Assembly (NCBI RefSeq): GCF_900660615.1
Contig: NZ_LR215023.1
Coordinates: forward strand, 248,001-312,000
Length of the DNA: 64,000 nt
Direction of reading: 5' to 3'
Source: Malacoplasma iowae
Lineage (GTDB): Bacteria; Bacillota_I; Bacilli_A; Mycoplasmatales; Mycoplasmoidaceae
Shown: positions 2,679 through 57,913 of the stretch, piece after piece
How positions within the stretch are numbered: position 1 is the first letter of the stretch
Layout: each line of letters starts with the position of its first letter
Position numbers and translations under genes: made by a program
Notes under the pieces: model-generated
What the model was told of the DNA's origin: nothing
The model's input: only the letters and a program-made list of their open reading frames with translations
The model's database searches: none

Positions 2679-3896
2679 ATGGAAAATAGATGAAGAAATA
2701 AAATTGATTGATTTGCAAATAATAGTGATTATGTATATCTTGATAGTGCAGCAACAGCACTTAAACCAAGAAGTGTTTTAGAAGCAATTAATTACTACAC
2801 AAATCATATTTGTACAAATCCACATAATGATGATTCACAATTTTCACATAGACCACATATTGTTATGGAAGAAACAAGAACTTTATTAAGTGAAATATTA
2901 AATTGTGATAGTAAAGAAATAATCTTTACTCCTGGTGGTACATTTTCTTTAAATATGGCAGCATCATCTCTTGAGGATTTTTTATCAAGCGGAGATGAAA
3001 TCATATTAACAAATGCAGAACATGCATCAAACATTTTGCCATGAATGGATCTTGCTAAGAAAAAAAACTTAAAGCTAATTTTTGCAGAAACAGATTTTAG
3101 CAACTCAAATATATATGAAAATGACATAATAAATAAAATTACTCATAAAACAAAAGTTGTTGCTTTTGCTAATGGTACAAATCTTATAGGTCATGAAATA
3201 GATGCAGAAAGATTGTCTAACTTAATAAAATCTATAAATAATAATATTTTTATTATTGTTGATGCTGTTCAATATTTAGCTCATAATAAAATGAACTTAA
3301 AAAAAGCATCAATTGATTTTTTAGCTTGTAGTGCTCATAAAATGATGGGACCAACAGGAATAGGTGCATTATATATAAATAAAAATTTAATAAATTTCAT
3401 AAAACCAAAAATTGTTGGTGGTGGAATGAATGGTGAAATTAGAAGAGATTATTATACCTTAATGGAAGGCAATCTTAAGTTTGAAGCAGGTACTCCAAAC
3501 ATTATGGGAATATATGGTTGAAATGCTGCTTTAAAGCTTTATGTTAATACAGATTTTGAAAAAGAAAGAGAAAGAATATTTGAATTAAAGCATTATCTTG
3601 ACTCGAAATTAAAATCTATTAATAATTTAAAAATTTATAATATGGGAATAAATTCTTTTGTTACAATTTTCTCAATTGATAACGTCTTTAGTCAAGATTT
3701 AGCTAATTATCTTGGTAATAACAAGATAATTGTAAGAAGTGGTTTATCTTGTGCAAAACTTGCAGATGAAATTATCAATTATCCACATGTTGTAAGAGTA
3801 TCTATGCATTTTTACACTACAAAAGAAGATATAGATAAACTTATTGACGCATTAAAAAAATACAAGAAAGGGGATGAACTTGATGGACTCGTCTAA
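2679..3896 (+). CDS. sufS: SufS cysteine desulfurase
   Basis: PLP-dependent class V aminotransferase that removes sulfur from cysteine and passes it as persulfide to SufU. The 405 residues need in-frame TGA codons read as Trp, for example at residues 5 and 11. Motifs in order: YLDSAATALKP near the N terminus, a conserved His in NAEHASNILPW, DAVQYLAHN for PLP binding, the PLP lysine in ACSAHKMMGPTG, and the sulfur-carrying Cys in the VRSGLSCAKL loop. The start ATG follows the sufD stop directly. The end overlaps sufU by 14 bases. It could also supply sulfur to other enzymes, such as the PAPS-reductase-like protein at 48050-49429, but that is inference. Confidence 0.95.
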
Positions 3897-47692: not shown

Positions 47693-47726
47693 AAAAATCA
47701 CATAGTTTAACTATGTGATTTTTTTT
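47693..47726. terminator. Terminator between gatB and the minus-strand HTH gene
   Basis: AAAATCACATAGT pairs with ACTATGTGATTTT over a short loop, then T run. On the minus strand it also lies just past the stop of the HTH gene (47725), so it can serve both transcripts. Confidence 0.85.
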
Positions 47727-48063
47727 ATAAAAAATATTTAAAAACTAATAATGTTATTTCATCTTTTTTGTTTTTTCACTCTTCGTTATTCTCGAATGCG
47801 TATTTTAATGCCCCAAAAATATAATTAACTGATGGATTGGAATATGATTTTGTTCCATCTTTATTTTTAAATCCATTAACAATTTTTGAATAGTATTTGT
47901 CGTTTGCTCAACCCAAATCATAAACAAATTGATCAATAGTTTTATTCATTAATTTTCTTAGTTCTAATAAAAAATTTGATACATCGATATTAAATGATTT
48001 GTAATTATTCTCAAATTCCAAAGGTGTGGGAACTAATTTTTCCACATTTTTACTTTTTTTCAT
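47725..48063 (-). CDS. Small XRE-like helix-turn-helix protein
   Basis: A 112-residue product interrupted by two UGA-Trp codons, so invisible under the standard code. Residues about 32-90 look like a Cro/C1 (XRE) DNA-binding domain: LLELRKLMNKTIDQFVYDLG, then WANDKYYSKIVNGF, where YYSKIVNG matches the usual recognition-helix end, and PSVNYIFGALKYAFENN. The ATG lies inside the 3' end of the PAPS-reductase-like gene (14-base overlap), so the two are translationally coupled. By position it could regulate the divergent GHKL-Z1-nuclease operon, like controller proteins of restriction systems. The HTH call rests on pattern only. Confidence 0.6.
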
Positions 48064-49429
48064 TCTTGCTTTTTTCTTTCAAATTTTTTTCTTTTTTTCT
48101 AATTTGATCAATTTCTTTTTTATTTGTTTGATAATTGGTTTTAAAATGTTGTTGAGCTTTATTGAATTCTGAAACTGTATATTTTCAATTAGTAGAATTA
48201 TTATCACTCAATTCAATTTGAACCATTATTCTAATTAAATTTATGTTTAAGTTTTCATATCATTCATTAATTTTTTTTCTTCTCTCATAATAGTACTTCA
48301 TGTATTTTTGATCATTTCTAATCTTTATATCCATATCTGCTATTATGCTATACATTCCGGTTCTTCATATTTGAGACTCATATAGATTTGGCATATAATC
48401 ATATAGTTTTTCAAATCTATTTCTATATTTGTATTCATCTGACAATTTATCATCTTTTGAATATTTATTTGCTATGTATTCTTCAAGTGAACTTCCTAGA
48501 GGACAAGCTGTGCAACCCAACCTTGAAAATCTTAATTCATTAATATTGTGTTTGTTTGGATGATATCCATATGCATCATTTATTATTAATTTATTTTCTT
48601 TAATGTATGTTCATATATCATTGGTGTTTCAAATTGATATTGGTCTACTCATTGGGTGATTTTGATTGTATATATTACAACCATTTTTTATTCATGACTG
48701 TTTTCTGAGTTCTGACTCATTTGCCATTGTGCCTATAAAACTAGGTCTTTTATCATGTTTTAATCCACCTTTAACATAATCACAGCATTTTTCACTAAAA
48801 AAATAATTTATTTTGTTGCCATTTTCATCTATGAAATAAGTCATTTCTGAATCTAATAAGAATAATCTATTTTTTGAAATTTTATATTTTGCACTTGGCT
48901 CTATTCCAAAAGCAATTTTTGATAATAGTGTTTTTGTTTTACTTCTTTTTAATCTATTAAGCATTGTCGAAATTTTTTTAGAATAAATTGGATATCCTTT
49001 AGATTTTAAAATTTCAATTCATGGTTTAATTGGTTTGACAAATAATGGATTTTTTATGTAAGAAAATTTATCCTGATATTTCTCAACTGTTGATTTAATG
49101 AATTGTACAGTAGAAGGAAATGTTATTTCTATAGCATATGCTGGTACAAGATATATATCAGAATTAATTTTTTTATGTACTTTTGCAACTAAATCTAACA
49201 AAACAGTTGAATCTTTACCACCACTAAATGAAACAAGAACTTCTTTTTTATTTTCCTTTTTATATCAATTTAAAAAATCTATTATTTTCTCTTCTGCTCA
49301 TATTAATTTATCTTTATATGGCATATGATTGCATAATTCTTCATAATGATCTTTTCTAGTTTGTTGTAAAGAAAGTTTTTCGTTATTTTGTTTCAAATTG
49401 ATTGATAATCCAGTATTCTTTATTTCCAT
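48050..49429 (-). CDS. PAPS-reductase / N-type ATP pyrophosphatase family protein
   Basis: A 459-residue protein of the PAPS-reductase-like ATP-pyrophosphatase superfamily, related to phage-type 'PAPS reductases' and more distantly to DndC/SspD. The PP-loop SGGKDST lies at residues 69-75. Further motifs are a conserved KCCDYVKGGLKHDKRPSFIG with a Cys pair, GTMANESELRKQSWIKNGCN, SRPISIWNTNDIWTYI, and a Cys cluster RLGCTACPLGSS that may bind a metal or Fe-S centre. The C-terminal 60 residues are a Lys-rich charged helix. The family adenylates a substrate with ATP, often for sulfur insertion. The gene is divergent from a MORC-type ATPase operon. The exact reaction is unknown. Confidence 0.85.
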
Positions 49430-49431
49430 AC

Positions 49432-49470
49432 AAAATCACCGTATTATTTAATAACAATATAGTGATTTTA
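49432..49470. promoter_or_regulatory. Inverted repeat next to the PAPS-reductase-like start
   Basis: AAAATCAC and GTGATTTT flank about 20 bases between the start codon of the minus-strand gene and the 34-bp palindrome. It may be a 5' hairpin of that mRNA or a second operator. Confidence 0.4.
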
Positions 49471-49483
49471 AAAATTACAAATA

Positions 49484-49517
49484 ATCATTAAAACCATCTA
49501 TAGTTGGTTTTAATGAT
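49484..49517. promoter_or_regulatory. 34-bp palindrome between the divergent operons
   Basis: Perfect 13-base arms, ATCATTAAAACCA and TGGTTTTAATGAT, separated by TCTATAGT. It lies midway between the start of the minus-strand operon (49429) and the GHKL gene (49584) and has no T tract that serves a nearby gene. It is a good operator candidate for the XRE-like protein. Confidence 0.6.
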
Positions 49518-49583
49518 GAAGTTTTTTTCGTAGTATCATTTTTGATTTTTGTTAAATATATAAAAATTCAAGATGAGGAAAAA

Positions 49584-51620
49584 ATGAACGAAAAAAATAA
49601 TGTTGATTATATAAATTTAGATGATGAATATAACGAATACACAGAAACAAAAGACAAAGAAGTTATATACCAAAAAAATACTAAGCATCAATTCACAAGG
49701 TTTGCATCAGAAGATTATAATTTTCCATTAATGATTTCAGAATTTATCGATAACTCAATATCTGCTTATGAAAAAACTTTTGCTGCATCTGAAAATAAAG
49801 ATATAGATGAAGGCTTTAATACAAGAGATTATAGTAAATTACATATAAAATTTGTTGTTAATAATTTTGGTACTGAAGAAAACAATAAGTCAGAAATTAT
49901 AGTTGTAGATAATGGGCCAGGTATGACTTATGAGGAATTAAAACAAGCATCAAAAATGTATGATGTTGATGATAAAGGAATAAATGATTTAAACCAACAT
50001 GGTATAGGTATGAAATCTGCTTGTTTTTGACTTGGTAAAGATGTTTCCGTTCATACAAGAAGAAAAAATTCTTTTAATATTAGTTTTTTTAACCTTGAAA
50101 CATCTACGAAAAGTGAAAAAGAAGAATGCAATATAGAGGTTAGGCAATCTCCAATTTCAAAAAGACAAGAAAATTTTGCAGGTACTCAAATAAGAATTAG
50201 AAACATAAATAAAGCTGTTGATAAATTTGACTATTTTAGCAATTCAAATTCATTGCTTTTATATATGCAAATCTTTTTGGGTATAAAATTTTTAAGATAT
50301 ATTAAAAAATGTTTAAGAATTACTTTTGAATATAAAACTCAAGATGAAAAATCGTTAAAAAAATTTCAAATATTAGGTTTTGAAAGAAAATATTTAAATA
50401 AGAAAAATCTTTTTGATGCTTTATTAAATAAAAAAAATAATTTATCAAGAGAAGAAAAAATTAGTGCTTTTGAAAAAGAAGTAATTTCTAGAATGAACGA
50501 AATAGCAAATAATAAAGATGGAAAAACATCTAAAAATGCACAAATATTAGCTAATAAATTTTGTAATGGTAATGATGTTAAGATTGATGAAAATATTTTT
50601 ATAGAAGGGAAAGAATTTACATTAGAAATAGGTATAGTAAATAAATTTAAAAATTTACCTTCTACCAATTATATTTTTTATGATTCAGATGGAAATGTTG
50701 TATCAGATAATATTGCATTAAAAACAGAGTATAATGTGGAAATTGAAAAAATTAAAGATTGAGTTAGTTTAAATCAATTACAAGGTTTATATTTCTTTCA
50801 TCACAATAGAGGATTATTAATGGGACCACTTAGTGGCACTAAACAAATTAAAGGAAAGCGTCCAGAACCTATAACAGTTGCAAGAAATGGTCAAAAAATT
50901 GATGGTAATACAACACCAATGCGGTTAATAGGGCAAGCTGATATATATGGTGTTAAAACTGAAGTTAATAAAGCTAATTTTCATTTTTCAAATTTAACAA
51001 CAAATGATCTTAAAGCTAATTTAGAAAATATTTGAAAACAAGATTTTAAAAAAATATTAGAAATATTTGTAAACTTTGAAGATTATATAAAAAAAATAGA
51101 AGGTTTTGATAAAGAGTATACTTGTAAGTCTTTAAATAAAAATATTGATTATTGAAAAAACAAAACATCAACTAGTCTTATTAATTCAGAAATAATAAAC
51201 TATGATGATGAAGATGATAAGATTGCTAAAACATCATGAAAATTTAATTATAAAAATGAAAAGTATAAATTCATAATCTATTGTTCAGATATTGAAGAAC
51301 CTTTTACAAAAATGCAAATTGATAGTGATGGTCTTTCAGACGAAATTTGTTTTGAAATAAAAATAAATAAATTGCATCCATTTTGAAATCCTTATAACGA
51401 GACCAATTCAGAACAAGCAATTATTAAATTTAGAAATTTTGTTTATCCATTTACTATGGCTATGACTTTAGCTCAACATAAGCTTGATTTAGCATCAATA
51501 GAAATCAAAACTAGTGAAGGATATATTGATGACACAATAATGGATATAAATTTTATAGACATATTCTCTAGTATCACTAAGAATTGAAAGGAAAATGATA
51601 ATAGTGACCTTGATGAATAA
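49584..51620 (+). CDS. MORC/MutL-type GHKL ATPase
   Basis: A 678-residue protein with an N-terminal GHKL (Hsp90/MutL-like) ATPase: N box ISEFIDNSISAYE near residues 53-65, G1 motif IVVDNGPGMTYEEL near 110, and G2 motif DLNQHGIGMKSACFW. A MutL-S5-like second domain follows (YFFHHNRGLLMGPL), then a long C-terminal region. Family members occur in MORC-type restriction systems with Z1 and nuclease partners. The ATG at 49584 has GAGGAA upstream; earlier in-frame TTG codons are not needed. Several UGA-Trp codons occur. The 3' end overlaps the Z1 gene by 26 bases. Confidence 0.9.
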
Positions 51621-53130
51621 AGTCGATTACTTGGAACTAGAAGAATTAGATTTAAATAAAGAAGATAAATTTGTTCAAACAATTAACATAAAAAATGATG
51701 AAATTTATGAATTCAATTTAAAAAATATATTTTCTGATTTTAAAAATTTAGGAAAACAAAGAATAATTTGCATTGGTAATGTTCAAAGTGGAAAAACAGC
51801 AAACATAATAAATGTGATAAATGAAGCTTCAAATAGGGGTATAAATTTAGTTATTTTCTTTGGGGGTAATACCGAAGTTCTTAGATTACAAAGTGAAAAT
51901 AGATTAAATGTATTAAGTTGTAATAAAAAGATAAAAATTTTAGGAAAACATGTTTCAACAGGTTTAAATAATTATTTGTCTGGTAATTATACTTATGTGA
52001 TTACAGTTATGAAAAACAAGGATTCTTTTCAAAAAATATTTGAGTCTTTGAATAATGAAAATTTAAAAGATAAAAAAGTAATGTTAATAGATGATGAATG
52101 TGATTATGGTAGTGTGAACACATCAAAAATAGGTTCGTCAGAGTACCACAAAAAAATATTTGAAATTTATGATAGATTATACAATGTTACACTTATAAGT
52201 TTTACTGCTACACCTTTTGCAAATATTTTAAATTCCAAAGACTTGTTTAATTTGCAAGAAATTCCAAAAGTTGTTGTTTTAAAAAATAGTGATGAATATT
52301 GCGGTTTAGTTGAGTTTAATAAAAGATCTAATGAATGTTATTTATATAGATATAAAGATAAAAATAATCACAATGTTGAAGTTAGTTATAAAAATTCAAT
52401 AGAAGATACTTTTTTAATTTATCTTTATGATGCAGCTAGAAAGTGACATGATAATGGATATGAGTCAATTGAATGTTTTGAAACCCAAATGCTAATTAAT
52501 ATAGACTGTGAAAATGATATTCATTTAAATGTATATAAAACACTTATAGATTTTTTAAAAAATACTTTTACTAGTATAGAAAAAAGAAAAGTAGCAATAC
52601 TTAATGAGTTCAGAAAGGTTTTTATAAATAATAATAATCCTAGTTTTTTTGATGAAGATATGTATCAAGAATTTTATTCTAAAAAAATATTTACATTGGT
52701 TAAGTATATAATTGATAATTTAGAAAAAACTATCATTATTTTAAATAGTTCAGAAAATCAAGAAAAAGATTTATTTTATGACAAAAGTATTAAACACAAA
52801 ATAATAATTGGTGGGGTTTTATTGTCTCGTGGTGTAACATATGAAAACCTTATTACTGAACTTATATTAAATTATCCTAAAAAAACAATAGCAGTTGATA
52901 CTCTATTACAAAGAGCTAGATGATTTGGGTATAGAAAAAATGATATTAAATATATGAAAATCATAATGACTAAAGAATTAATTGATATTTTTAAAATTAC
53001 TGAAAGATATTTGGAGATTTTTATACCAGGAATATCTAATTATCATAAATTAAAAAAATACATTAAAAATCTTGATGCTTTGTATAGTCAAAAAAACATT
53101 AGGAGCACATCTTATGGAAAATCTAGATAA
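51595..53130 (+). CDS. Z1-domain helicase-like ATPase
   Basis: A 511-residue SF2-like ATPase with a Z1 domain. Walker A is GNVQSGKTANIINV near residue 65. Walker B is MLIDDECDYGS. A TATPFANIL motif follows. The Z1 signature lies near residues 405-450: GGVLLSRGVTYENLITELIL and then TLLQRARWFGYRKND. UGA encodes Trp in RARWFGYR. It is short compared with many Z1 proteins (often 800 or more residues), so a C-terminal extension is missing. AAAGGA lies just before the ATG, which is inside the GHKL gene. The PD-(D/E)XK gene starts inside its 3' end. Z1 proteins partner MORC ATPases and nucleases in prokaryotic conflict systems. Confidence 0.9.
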
Positions 53131-54016
53131 GAGAAAATATATACGTTTTGTTAAAGTTTCTGAGATGATAGGCATAGGTGTTGAAGTTGAAAATCTAGAT
53201 GAAAAAGAAAAGGAATGTTTAATCAAAGACATAGATAATATAAATTTTCAATTCATAAAATACCATGGTCTTTGTTATGATAAAATCACAAATAAAAATT
53301 ATCATTTTATTAAATTTATAGATATCCCAAAAAGTATGATTGATGAAGTATGTCTGTTAATTGATGAACAATTAGAAAAAGAAAATTATAGAGTATCATT
53401 CTATGATTGTTTGAATTATGTAGTTTCATTATTTAGAAAAAAAATATTTCCAAGTTCACTTGATAGTGAGATTAGAGGAGATATTTGTGAAGCTTTATTT
53501 ATATTAAAAGCTAAGAAAGAACTTAATATAGATCTAACAAAATATTATTATAGTGATGATAATTTATATGATTTCTATTTTGATGATAAAAAAGTTTGTG
53601 TTGATATAAAAGGAACAACAAAATTAAGTTCAAACATAAAAATAAATTATAGACAACTAAGTGAAAAAGAATTTAATAGAGATTTTTATGTTGTAGAATA
53701 CCAACTTGTTAATGATAAAGAAACAGGAAAGAACATTTTTGAATTATATAATGAGATTGGTTTACATTCAGAAATAATAAAATCAAAATATGATAAATGA
53801 AATAATTATAAGAATTCTGAAGAAGATGGAAAGAAAAAAATCGAATCATACTATCTTGTCAATCTAGACAATACGAAAATATTTAAAATTAAAAATGAAT
53901 CATTACCAAAAATAAGCGTGATAAATGATAATCTTTTAATAGATCTTGAATTAACTATATCAACCAAAAATTGTAATGATGGTGATATCAAAGAAGTAAT
54001 TAGATACATTGAATAA
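53114..54016 (+). CDS. PD-(D/E)XK-motif nuclease
   Basis: A 300-residue protein matching the 'PD-(D/E)XK motif protein' family found with Z1 and MORC ATPases. The nuclease core lies near residues 125-185: EIRGDICEALFILKAKKEL, then DNLYDFYFDDKKVCVDIKGT, with the Asp of YDF and the D-x-K triad in VDIK. The N-terminal half is a mixed alpha/beta domain and the C terminus ends in a short beta-rich segment. AGGAG lies 8 bases before the ATG; the frame starts inside the Z1 gene. UGA-Trp is used. No methyltransferase gene follows. It is the last gene of the operon. Confidence 0.88.
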
Positions 54017-55739: not shown

Positions 55740-55760
55740 TTTTATTAGTTTATAATATTG

Positions 55761-55790
55761 AACTTACAACTAGTTGGTTGTAAGTTTTTT
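55761..55790 (+). terminator. Terminator of the 384-aa surface protein gene
   Basis: AACTTACAAC pairs with GTTGTAAGTT over a 6-base loop, followed by T run. Confidence 0.85.
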
Positions 55791-55904
55791 ATTCACACTA
55801 GACAGCATGATTTTTCCTTTTATAAGTTGCCACAATTTAATTAGCGTTAATTTTTTAGAGTTATGATATATTTTTTTGAAATATATTTAAATTGATGTTT
55901 TGAT

Positions 55905-56925
55905 GATATAAAACAAAAAATATTTCTACCATTGTTAGCAATACCTATAAATTCCTACAAACAATATCATTAACAAGTTGTGTAACAAAATAAAATAATG
56001 TTGATGAAACTATCAAATATTAAGTGGGTAAGTTAAATGAAAAATTTATAAAAGAATAACTGGAATTATTAGCACATTTACTTGTGAAGGTTTTAAATAT
56101 ATTAAAGACAAATTAATTGGTAATACTGTAAGTTTGTATCAAATAAATAACATTATAAACATTGTAGGTTATATTGTAATGTGTTTTCCAAATTATATGT
56201 TGGATGTGGTTGGTTTAGATTTACCTTAATGAGTTGAAGATTTTGCTAAAGAAATAAATTTGTTGGTGGTTTAGATAACTTTAATAAGGGGATTAAAAAA
56301 ACTTAACAAATTGACATACACTAATTAAAGTAAGTTAAAAAATATAATTAATGAAGTTAAAACGCTTTTTATAAGTATATTAAATGAGATAATTATATAA
56401 ATTTTTTGGATTTAAAATTCCTTCTTTTTGTCAAATTAGGTTTTAGATGCTAATATAGGTGCATATCAATATTATGGCAATAATAAAAAATATTTATTGT
56501 TTCTTATCAATTATTTAATTATTATCAAAACAAGTATGATGGTTCTTCTTTAAGTTTAAATACAAATAATATAGATAATAATTAAAGTTTCTTTTATTAT
56601 GAAGGATATAAGTTTAATCAAGCTTTTTATGATAGGACAAATTATACGTACAAGTTTTTGAAACAAATAGTACCAATTATGTATTTTTTCTTTTTTATAA
56701 TAATGTTATAGATGTTAAATGTTTTATAGATAATGGACAAATATACTATAAAATAAGCCAAAAAGAACAACCTATATTAAAAATTTATAAAACAGTTAAA
56801 AGTGAAAATGGTCTTTATGAAATTGCTGATTTTTCAAAAACAACAAGCATATGAGTATAGGTTAGAAAATTATTGTTATATTTTAGGTCAAAAAAGAACT
56901 TATATATTTCCTACTTATATCAATA
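55905..56925 (+). pseudogene. Decayed lipoprotein gene
   Basis: Fragments of one protein appear in different plus-strand frames, broken by stops and single-base shifts. A lipoprotein signal is split by a frameshift (KQKIFLPLLAIP, then ISLTSCVTK with a lipobox Cys). Further fragments are WVEDFAKEINL and VGGLDNFNKGIKKT near 56230-56300, SLSLNTNNIDNN and YYEGYKFNQAFYDRTNYTYK near 56550-56660, and SENGLYEIADFSKTTSIWV near 56810-56860. No intact frame longer than about 60 codons remains. It looks like a former surface lipoprotein of about 300 residues. Confidence 0.6.
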
Positions 56926-57623
56926 AGTTTGTATAAAAATCATATATGGTGATGTATGTATTTATATATAAACTAGTTCTTGTTCATATCTTAAATTGCT
57001 TGTAATTGATTAATTTGCTCTGTTTTTAAAACAATTCAAATTTAAAAATTAATTCAAAAAGATTAATTTTGAACACATATTTTATCAGTAAAAATATTAG
57101 TTAGTTTAATATTTGAATTAATTGCACGTTGATCTTTAATTGTTTTTTTATTTAATGATTTAAATAATATGAATTATTTTTTATATTAATTGAGATTTTA
57201 AATCTATCCTTTTTCTAATGACTTAATATTCATGTTTTCAATTTTGATTATTGTCATTGTGTATAATATTTATTTCATTCGATTAAATATTTTATAAATG
57301 TTATTAATTGTTAAAAAATATTATTCTTTTAATCTATGTTTATCGGTTGTTTTTTATTTTATTTGTTCATAAAAATGACATAATTTTTTTGCAACTTGTT
57401 TTACGTTTTTTGAAATATCATTATTGATTACAGTTTGTTATTAATAAACCTTGTATAAAATTATAGTTAACTCTAATCATTGGCTTGTATTTTGACCATT
57501 TAAATTATTAAATTATTATTTTTAATACATAAATTTGAAGTATTAAAACCATATAAAATACATCCTATTTCTTTAAACTTGTATATATAAAATAAAAAAA
57601 TGCTATAATTTATAGTAAAATTA
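56926..57623. other. AT-rich spacer, no gene recognised
   Basis: About 700 bases with stops in all frames. Several short inverted repeats are present (for example AAATTAATTC / GATTAATTTT near 57045) but no coherent gene. It may be further remnant of the decayed lipoprotein locus. Confidence 0.5.
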
Positions 57624-57652
57624 TTTAAATCAATATTGAAAGTGTGTATAAT
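57624..57652 (+). promoter_or_regulatory. Promoter of a candidate small RNA
   Basis: TTTAAA (57624-57629) and TATAAT (57647-57652), spacer 17, placed just before the 57659-57800 structured segment. Confidence 0.5.
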
Positions 57653-57658
57653 ATTATA

Positions 57659-57800
57659 TGTCATAAGGGTTTTTTAACTTCCTTTATTTTTTTGATTTAA
57701 TTCTTTTGTTTTTAATCATAATTTTCCCTTATGACTCATTTAAAAGAAAATAGCTTGGAAAAGCTTATCTCATTAGTTCTATAACTAATGAGTTTTTTTT
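57659..57800 (+). ncRNA. Candidate structured small RNA (about 140 nt)
   Basis: A non-coding segment with its own promoter and terminator. The 5' arm GTCATAAGGG (57660-57669) pairs perfectly with CCCTTATGAC (57726-57735), closing a U-rich loop with a possible inner TGATT / AATCA helix. A small hairpin AGCTT-GGAA-AAGCT (57752-57765) follows. The transcript ends in a strong terminator, CTCATTAGTT / AACTAATGAG with eight T. It does not match SRP RNA, tmRNA, RNase P or a tRNA by eye. A 6S-like or regulatory RNA is possible. Confidence 0.45.
57769..57800 (+). terminator. Terminator of the candidate small RNA
   Basis: CTCATTAGTT and AACTAATGAG with a CTAT loop, then TTTTTTTT. Confidence 0.85.
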
Positions 57801-57913
57801 ATTTATAAAATATAAAAAAATTAAAAATTATTCGTACAAATTTAATATTTTTTAACGCTAACATTTTTTAAAAAACAGAATAAACTATAAACGCTTTTTT
57901 TAAGGAGAAAAAA

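Follow-up and report, generated by a model that had tools for sequence, protein, structure and literature searches.

A MORC-Z1-nuclease operon of Malacoplasma iowae and its recurrent pairing with a PAPS-reductase-like gene

Introduction

Operons that combine a MORC-type GHKL ATPase, a Z1 helicase and a nuclease of the restriction endonuclease (RE) fold with DNA methyltransferases are already described (Iyer, Abhiman and Aravind 2008, PMC2292703), the methyltransferase being frequent in them, though not universal. How self DNA might be marked when such an operon lies beside a gene for a phosphoadenosine phosphosulfate (PAPS)-reductase-like protein is the question raised by positions 47725-54016 of a 64,000-nucleotide stretch of Malacoplasma iowae DNA (contig NZ_LR215023.1, positions 248,001 to 312,000; hereafter the window), whose source genome is a single contig of 1.28 Mb with genetic code 4. 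The first-pass annotation of the window had suggested that the PAPS-reductase-like enzyme may provide either a self-mark or a trigger nucleotide. The evidence presented below makes it fairly probable that the locus encodes a restriction-modification (R-M)-like defence system of two exchangeable halves, in which the PAPS-reductase-like protein and a small partner write a sulfur-dependent self-mark, and the core, composed of the GHKL, Z1 and nuclease proteins, restricts unmarked DNA.

Composition of the cassette

Genes were read with genetic code 4 (TGA as tryptophan, the mycoplasma code), which was also used for calling open reading frames (ORFs) at the compared loci. The seemingly broken genes at this position are an artefact of translation table 11, since TGA codons split the ORFs there, and under code 4 the five-gene cassette noticed at first pass, a plus-strand trio facing a divergent minus-strand pair, is directly observed with all five genes intact (Table 1). 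Within the trio, the GHKL and Z1 genes overlap by 8 bases and the Z1 and nuclease genes by 17 bases, while the genes for the PAPS-reductase-like and the small protein share 14 bases. Inspection of ORFs and Pfam matches across the cassette revealed no DNA methyltransferase, so the earlier statement of a methyltransferase-free cassette holds, and the GHKL, Z1, PD-(D/E)XK and PP-loop assignments are likewise borne out by Pfam matches and intact motifs.

Table 1. Genes and intergenic region of the cassette (window coordinates)
Feature	Position	Strand	Evidence
Small helical protein, 112 amino acids	47725..48063	-	ORF under code 4
PAPS-reductase-like PP-loop protein, 459 amino acids	48050..49429	-	PAPS_reduct 2.2e-13 (Pfam)
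Divergent intergenic region, 154 bases, presumably with promoters	49430..49583	.	Sequence
MORC-type GHKL ATPase with S5 domain, 678 amino acids	49584..51620	+	HATPase_c_3 1.8e-15 (Pfam)
Short Z1 superfamily 2 helicase/ATPase, 505 amino acids	51613..53130	+	Z1 1.6e-25, ResIII 1.5e-5 (Pfam)
DUF4420-like PD-(D/E)XK nuclease, 300 amino acids	53114..54016	+	DUF4420 2.8e-4 (Pfam, below cut-off)

Catalytic motifs are intact in all three core proteins. The GHKL protein carries E53-x-x-D56-N57, D109-N-G-P-G113 and G140-x-G142 (GIGMK), and in the family alignment E53, D56, N57, D109, N110, G113, G142 and R409 are invariant in 21 relatives. The MORC-specific S5 motif GhXhhpXXRhl reads GLYFFHHNRGL at about residues 401-411, and the family profile matches solved structures of SMCHD1 (6.7e-10) and MORC2/3/4 (3e-7 to 4e-6). 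By its ATP-binding and S5 motifs, the protein thus qualifies as a predicted member of the MORC family. The Z1 protein contains the Walker A motif GNVQSGKT, the sequence DDECD and, at residues 429-439, DTLLQRARWFG as its version of the motif DThhQXuRhFG; among PADLOC models it matches Helicase_II (1.5e-27) and MzaC (5.2e-14), and no solved relative of its profile was found by sequence search. The nuclease reaches 20.6 bits with DUF4420, under the 27-bit cut-off, and shows G122, D123, E126, D153, K166 and Q181 as invariants of an 18-row family alignment, together with [DE]164-x-K166, in which position 164 is D here; its catalytic residues, GD..E126, D153 and this last pair, are thereby all retained. 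A helicase with the Z1 motif and a separate RE-fold nuclease, two features of the third operon type of Iyer 2008, are both present.

Besides its Pfam match, the PAPS-reductase-like protein has BrxP as its best, partial, PADLOC match (1.1e-16), followed by DndC (1.4e-6). SGGKDS, Cys215-Cys216 and Cys306-x2-Cys309 are invariant in 20 relatives, and from knowledge of the family the CC...CxxC arrangement, which resembles the 4Fe-4S ligands of assimilatory adenosine phosphosulfate (APS) reductases, may bind an iron-sulfur (Fe-S) cluster. An AlphaFold2 model (pLDDT 80) matches the fold of the PAPS domain of FAD synthase (Z 17.5) and of APS reductase (Z 15.6), and further of CysD, LarE, TtuA (Z 12.6) and NcsA (Z 11.9). 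These being PP-loop enzymes of adenylation and sulfur transfer, the modelled fold supports such chemistry, though not a particular substrate. Dnd or Ssp structures are absent from the Foldseek and VIA lists for this model, which is no evidence against kinship. A role in sulfate assimilation was rejected, as CysH models are missed by a wide distance (NF002537, 25.7 vs 154 bits; TIGR00434, 17.5 vs 165 bits).

The kinship of the TtuA and NcsA folds, both of tRNA thiolases, also lends some substance to a reading in which the PAPS-reductase-like protein alters RNA or protein, for instance by tRNA thiolation, and the core monitors the change, or in which it serves in repair or rescue. This is nevertheless very unlikely, since the gene is missing from many related genomes and hence is not a housekeeping gene, its partners are DNA nucleases and helicases, and the proteins that occupy its place in relatives, described below, are DNA modification enzymes.

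The small protein was labelled helix-turn-helix-like at first pass. It is predicted to be all-helical, and W52, N54, Y58, N63, G64 and P77 are invariant in its family (n=13), but the label finds no backing in Pfam, in PDB sequences or in PDB folds (Foldseek), none of which gave a match. Its gene adjoins the PAPS gene even where the core lies elsewhere in the genome (G026-G029; G and L numbers denote genomes and loci) and where GmrSD replaces the core (L058, L059). Since it stays with the PAPS gene when the core is moved or replaced, the small protein is regarded as part of the PAPS half.

Co-occurrence and proximity of the PAPS gene and the core

An absence of linkage between the PAPS gene and the ATPase operon in related genomes had been named beforehand as one finding that would overturn the idea. 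Searches through 95 whole genomes from the window's family, with 57 loci taken for comparison, instead revealed strong and recurrent linkage. Cores were divided into short-Z1, with a Z1 protein of about 440-510 amino acids, and long-Z1, with one of 680-780. Of the 95 genomes, 39 encode the PAPS-reductase-like protein and 30 encode a Z1 relative; the PAPS-reductase-like protein is present in 21 of the 22 family genomes with a short-Z1 core, the exception (G044) being 78% complete. When both flanks of the core are intact, meaning at least 3.5 kb on either side, the PAPS gene lies within 3.5 kb of 12 of 15 short-Z1 cores, as compared to none of 14 long-Z1 loci, of which 9 have intact flanks (Fisher 1.7e-4 with the 9 intact long-Z1 loci and 1.1e-5 with all 14, values to be read with the genomes being related and not independent). 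The linked loci come from several genera and show three or more gene orders, with the PAPS gene divergent from the core (window, G030), co-oriented and 3' of the nuclease (G022, G024, G067) or co-oriented and 5' of GHKL (G033, G046, G048, G049, G055, G071, G089), and gene overlaps are frequent (-10 to -73 bases). Linkage between the PAPS gene and the core is real.

The interval between gatB and xerC/mnmG, in which the cassette resides, is a defence hotspot, since in G030, the nearest relative, a DpnII-type methyltransferase gene with a DpnII nuclease gene is inserted between gatB and the small gene (L047:5924-7589). The PAPS gene and the core could accordingly be independent defence genes that share this hotspot, as would fit their separate positions in G025-G029, the presence of the separate DpnII system of G030 and the exchange of the core alone between L040 and L032. 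Such a coincidence is unlikely, because it would have to account for the near-constant presence of the PAPS gene in genomes with a short-Z1 core, for the linkage at most intact loci across several genera, gene orders and overlapping arrangements, and for PAPS never accompanying the long-Z1 loci of those same genomes.

Exchange of the restriction half

At the same site, the window and G030 are nearly alike outside the core, with gatA/B/C 87-95%, mnmG 93%, PAPS 88% and the small protein 84% identical, whereas identity falls to 24% for GHKL, 33% for Z1 and 27% for the nuclease. It is most likely the window's core that was replaced, since the Z1 protein of G030 is 38-42% identical to those of genus members and that of the window 35% at most to all. 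A second case of core exchange is provided by L040 and L032, which have 73% identical PAPS proteins and only 30% identical Z1 proteins. Swapping can also be partial: in G027 as compared to G025/G028 (L044 vs L045/L043), replacement has affected GHKL and two thirds of Z1, from its N-terminus to a recombination breakpoint near residue 350 (60-70% identity), whereas PAPS and the nuclease have stayed at 89-95% and 93-97%, respectively. From these alignments, the breakpoint (L043, L044, L045) points to a switching of alleles in the ATPase/helicase half.

The partner of PAPS can moreover be of a different kind. In 8 loci (L027, L028, L030, L033, L037, L039, L058, L059) the PAPS gene directly adjoins a gene of the GmrSD_N/DUF262 type, on its 5' or 3' side and at a distance of -85 to +25 bases, apparently as a second system, of two genes, within this bacterial family. 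GmrSD_N/DUF262 is a domain of GmrSD, of BrxU and of the phosphorothioate-sensing SspE (PMC12707154). In L032, L035 and L038 it is an HNH protein gene that overlaps PAPS.

Modification enzymes in the position of the PAPS gene

In a sister family of the same order, the position of the PAPS gene beside the short-Z1 core is seen to be taken by recognised DNA modification enzymes. A Dcm-type methyltransferase stands directly beside the core in L117 and, with one small gene between, in L116; a D12 adenine methyltransferase stands beside it in L119 and, with the nuclease between, in L118. Genuine DndC, the sulfur enzyme of phosphorothioate DNA modification, is encoded in the GHKL-Z1-DUF4420 operon itself in L120 (11770-13260; 3.9e-108) and L115 (10227-11636; 3.8e-87), in the latter of which core, DndC and a GmrSD protein follow one another, and no DndD over cut-off was found in either of these two genomes. 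These divergent DndC genes were missed by the class-wide PAPS-profile search at E<=1e-20 and were revealed by their neighbours. Long-Z1 loci follow another pattern, with Dcm directly 5' of GHKL in all those of other Bacilli (L122-L126, L129, L130), and with Dcm (L071, L074, L075, L077) or AIPR (L078, L079, L081), never PAPS, at long-Z1 or methylase-type loci of the window's own family.

That Dcm, a D12 methyltransferase or DndC occupies this place beside the same core is independent evidence in favour of the self-mark idea, and of the two roles first proposed for the PAPS-reductase-like enzyme it is the self-mark that has been strengthened, the trigger nucleotide having found no support. In this latter alternative an adenylate or thio-nucleotide, made or sensed by the enzyme as a small trigger molecule, would switch on the MORC-Z1-nuclease core in infection, with no DNA mark involved. 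Adenylyltransferases such as FAD synthase do share the fold, and the lack of DndD over cut-off would cause no difficulty; a trigger is rather unlikely all the same, given that relatives fill the slot with DNA methyltransferases and DndC, that the other PAPS partners are GmrSD/DUF262 nucleases, a type that reads DNA modifications, and that evidence specific to a nucleotide was not found.

A cognate methyltransferase beside the core in relatives had been considered as a counter-argument to a PAPS-based mark. Such methyltransferases do exist in other lineages, where they replace the PAPS gene, but the D12 enzyme of G030 was rejected as a cognate partner, since together with a DpnII nuclease of its own it makes up an entire R-M pair apart from the cassette. 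The mark could also be made by an unlinked methyltransferase, with the PAPS-reductase-like protein only regulating. Statements on the whole source genome rest on the family searches, by which one Dcm gene, followed by an overlapping gene, is located outside the cassette (L114, G000:C1 at about 189 kb). As the overlapping gene encodes, to judge by its sequence, an apparent HNH-type nuclease, the two are a probable R-M pair of their own, and the short-Z1 core is tracked by the presence of PAPS and not of Dcm, which leaves an unlinked methyltransferase highly improbable as the source of the mark.

Comparison with known systems

As compared to the MORC/Z1/RE-fold operons of PMC2292703, the MORC GHKL ATPase, the DThhQXuRhFG helicase and the separate RE-fold nuclease in one operon are shared, whereas the cytosine or adenine methyltransferases found there are replaced here by the PAPS-reductase-like and the small helical protein. 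This kind of operon is therefore known, and what appears to be new is its pairing with a PAPS-reductase-like protein, of which no published report was found. The open-access literature yielded no relevant report of MORC or Z1 paired with PAPS reductase, DndC or phosphorothioate, an absence that is no proof, and neither MORC nor GHKL is mentioned in the phosphorothioation survey PMC10853773 or the BREX survey PMC12839542.

The anti-phage system Mza (MutL-Z1-DUF-AIPR) also combines a MutL/MORC-like ATPase (MzaB) with a Z1 protein (MzaC), and a DUF4420-type nuclease is part of it. The Z1 protein of the window is, however, about 500 amino acids long as against Mza model lengths of 806-952, and assignment to Mza was rejected on the NCBIfam equivalogs (MzaB 24.4 vs 850 bits, MzaC 58.9 vs 1500 bits) and the lack of AIPR, no match to which lies near the window's core, the family being met only beside some long-Z1 loci. 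With Dnd/Ssp the cassette has in common a PP-loop Fe-S sulfurtransferase as presumed writer, and the DUF262 (SspE-like) nucleases are alternative PAPS partners here; the restriction half, by contrast, is MORC-Z1-PD-(D/E)XK and not DndFGH, PbeABCD or SspE. In type-4 BREX, a PAPS reductase replaces the methyltransferase (PMC12839542). The likeness lies in this substitution and in the best PADLOC match being BrxP, while the restriction half is unrelated and no BREX gene (PglZ, BrxC, BrxL) is present in the cassette. In the Z1-type N-protein R-M systems CglI/NgoAVII (PMC4267653), it is likewise a Z1 protein that drives restriction with ATP, but with a PLD nuclease and a methyltransferase, and without MORC.

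Proposed mechanism

In the mechanism that we favour, the PAPS-reductase-like PP-loop Fe-S protein and its small helical partner would mark host DNA in a sulfur-dependent manner, like DndC, SspD and BrxP, and this mark would protect self. The MORC ATPase, the Z1 translocase/ATPase and the PD-(D/E)XK nuclease would load on DNA lacking the mark, move or remodel it with ATP and cut it, thereby restricting phage or plasmid DNA. The sulfur donor might be SufS, as already suggested at first pass. Its gene is indeed present and encodes the one cysteine desulfurase and only Aminotran_5 protein of the genome (window about 2733-3842), but it is far from the cassette and unlinked, which makes SufS a possible donor. 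Several strands lead to this reading: the linkage, the equivalence of the slot, GmrSD_N/DUF262 as the other PAPS partner and the modularity seen against G030, as well as cysteines of the Fe-S type and a fold akin to those of APS reductases and thiolases, the small protein that follows PAPS and the precedent of type-4 BREX.

A number of findings weigh against it. The PAPS-reductase-like protein falls far below the DndC equivalog cut-off (TIGR03183, 20 vs 290.4 bits) and is accompanied by no DndD over cut-off in the source or related genomes, on which grounds a Dnd system proper was rejected; DndE gave no match either, but nor did the control genomes, so that its absence is not shown. The protein gave no PADLOC match to the SspD model at E up to 1. 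The phosphorothioate writers known so far depend on an ATPase together with a subunit for DNA recognition (PMC12707154). Three intact short-Z1 cores have no PAPS nearby, and although two of these have PAPS elsewhere in the genome, the third (L036) holds in the slot a 291-amino-acid protein with an NPPF motif and no Pfam match (L036:9442-10317), which overlaps GHKL and has a relative in the long-Z1/AIPR locus L081; its motif would possibly indicate an N6-adenine methyltransferase. Group-B PAPS genes, finally, have no small partner.

Without DndD, the ATPase function might be supplied by MORC or Z1, or the writer might be minimal, or the mark might differ. Since the core of the sister family uses DndC and no DndD was found in the genome, MORC-Z1 cores may tentatively be viewed as a further branch of sulfur-mark-dependent restriction, whose self-mark, possibly distinct from the classical phosphorothioate, would be supplied by a minimal sulfur DNA-marking machine of the PAPS-reductase-like protein and the small helical partner, without DndD/DndE or SspB/SspC; we hold this more specific version to be possible but somewhat doubtful.

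If the proposal is true, MORC-type restriction is not tied to DNA methylation and its self-mark slot accepts either methyl or sulfur chemistry, which bears on bacterial systems that are relatives of the eukaryotic gene-silencing MORC ATPases. It would also add a new reader/restriction branch for sulfur-marked DNA, possibly with a minimal writer, and would assign to a PAPS-reductase family widespread among phages, yet unexplained, a biochemical function that can be tested directly. Phages yielded only PAPS proteins of about 25-30% identity, and many PAPS-reductase-like proteins of 300-350 amino acids, about 27-35% identical to that of the window, are encoded on viral contigs (L135-L214), with no GHKL or Z1 near their genes. 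Among genome contigs, a search with the window's protein matched only a near relative on an uncultured Mycoplasma contig (CASDXH010000005.1), and no relative was found on plasmids.

Apart from the cassette, about 2 kb of the window (55750-57900) lack a sizeable ORF under code 4; this stretch, which resembles decayed coding sequence, separates a possible surface protein gene from a XerC-like recombinase gene.

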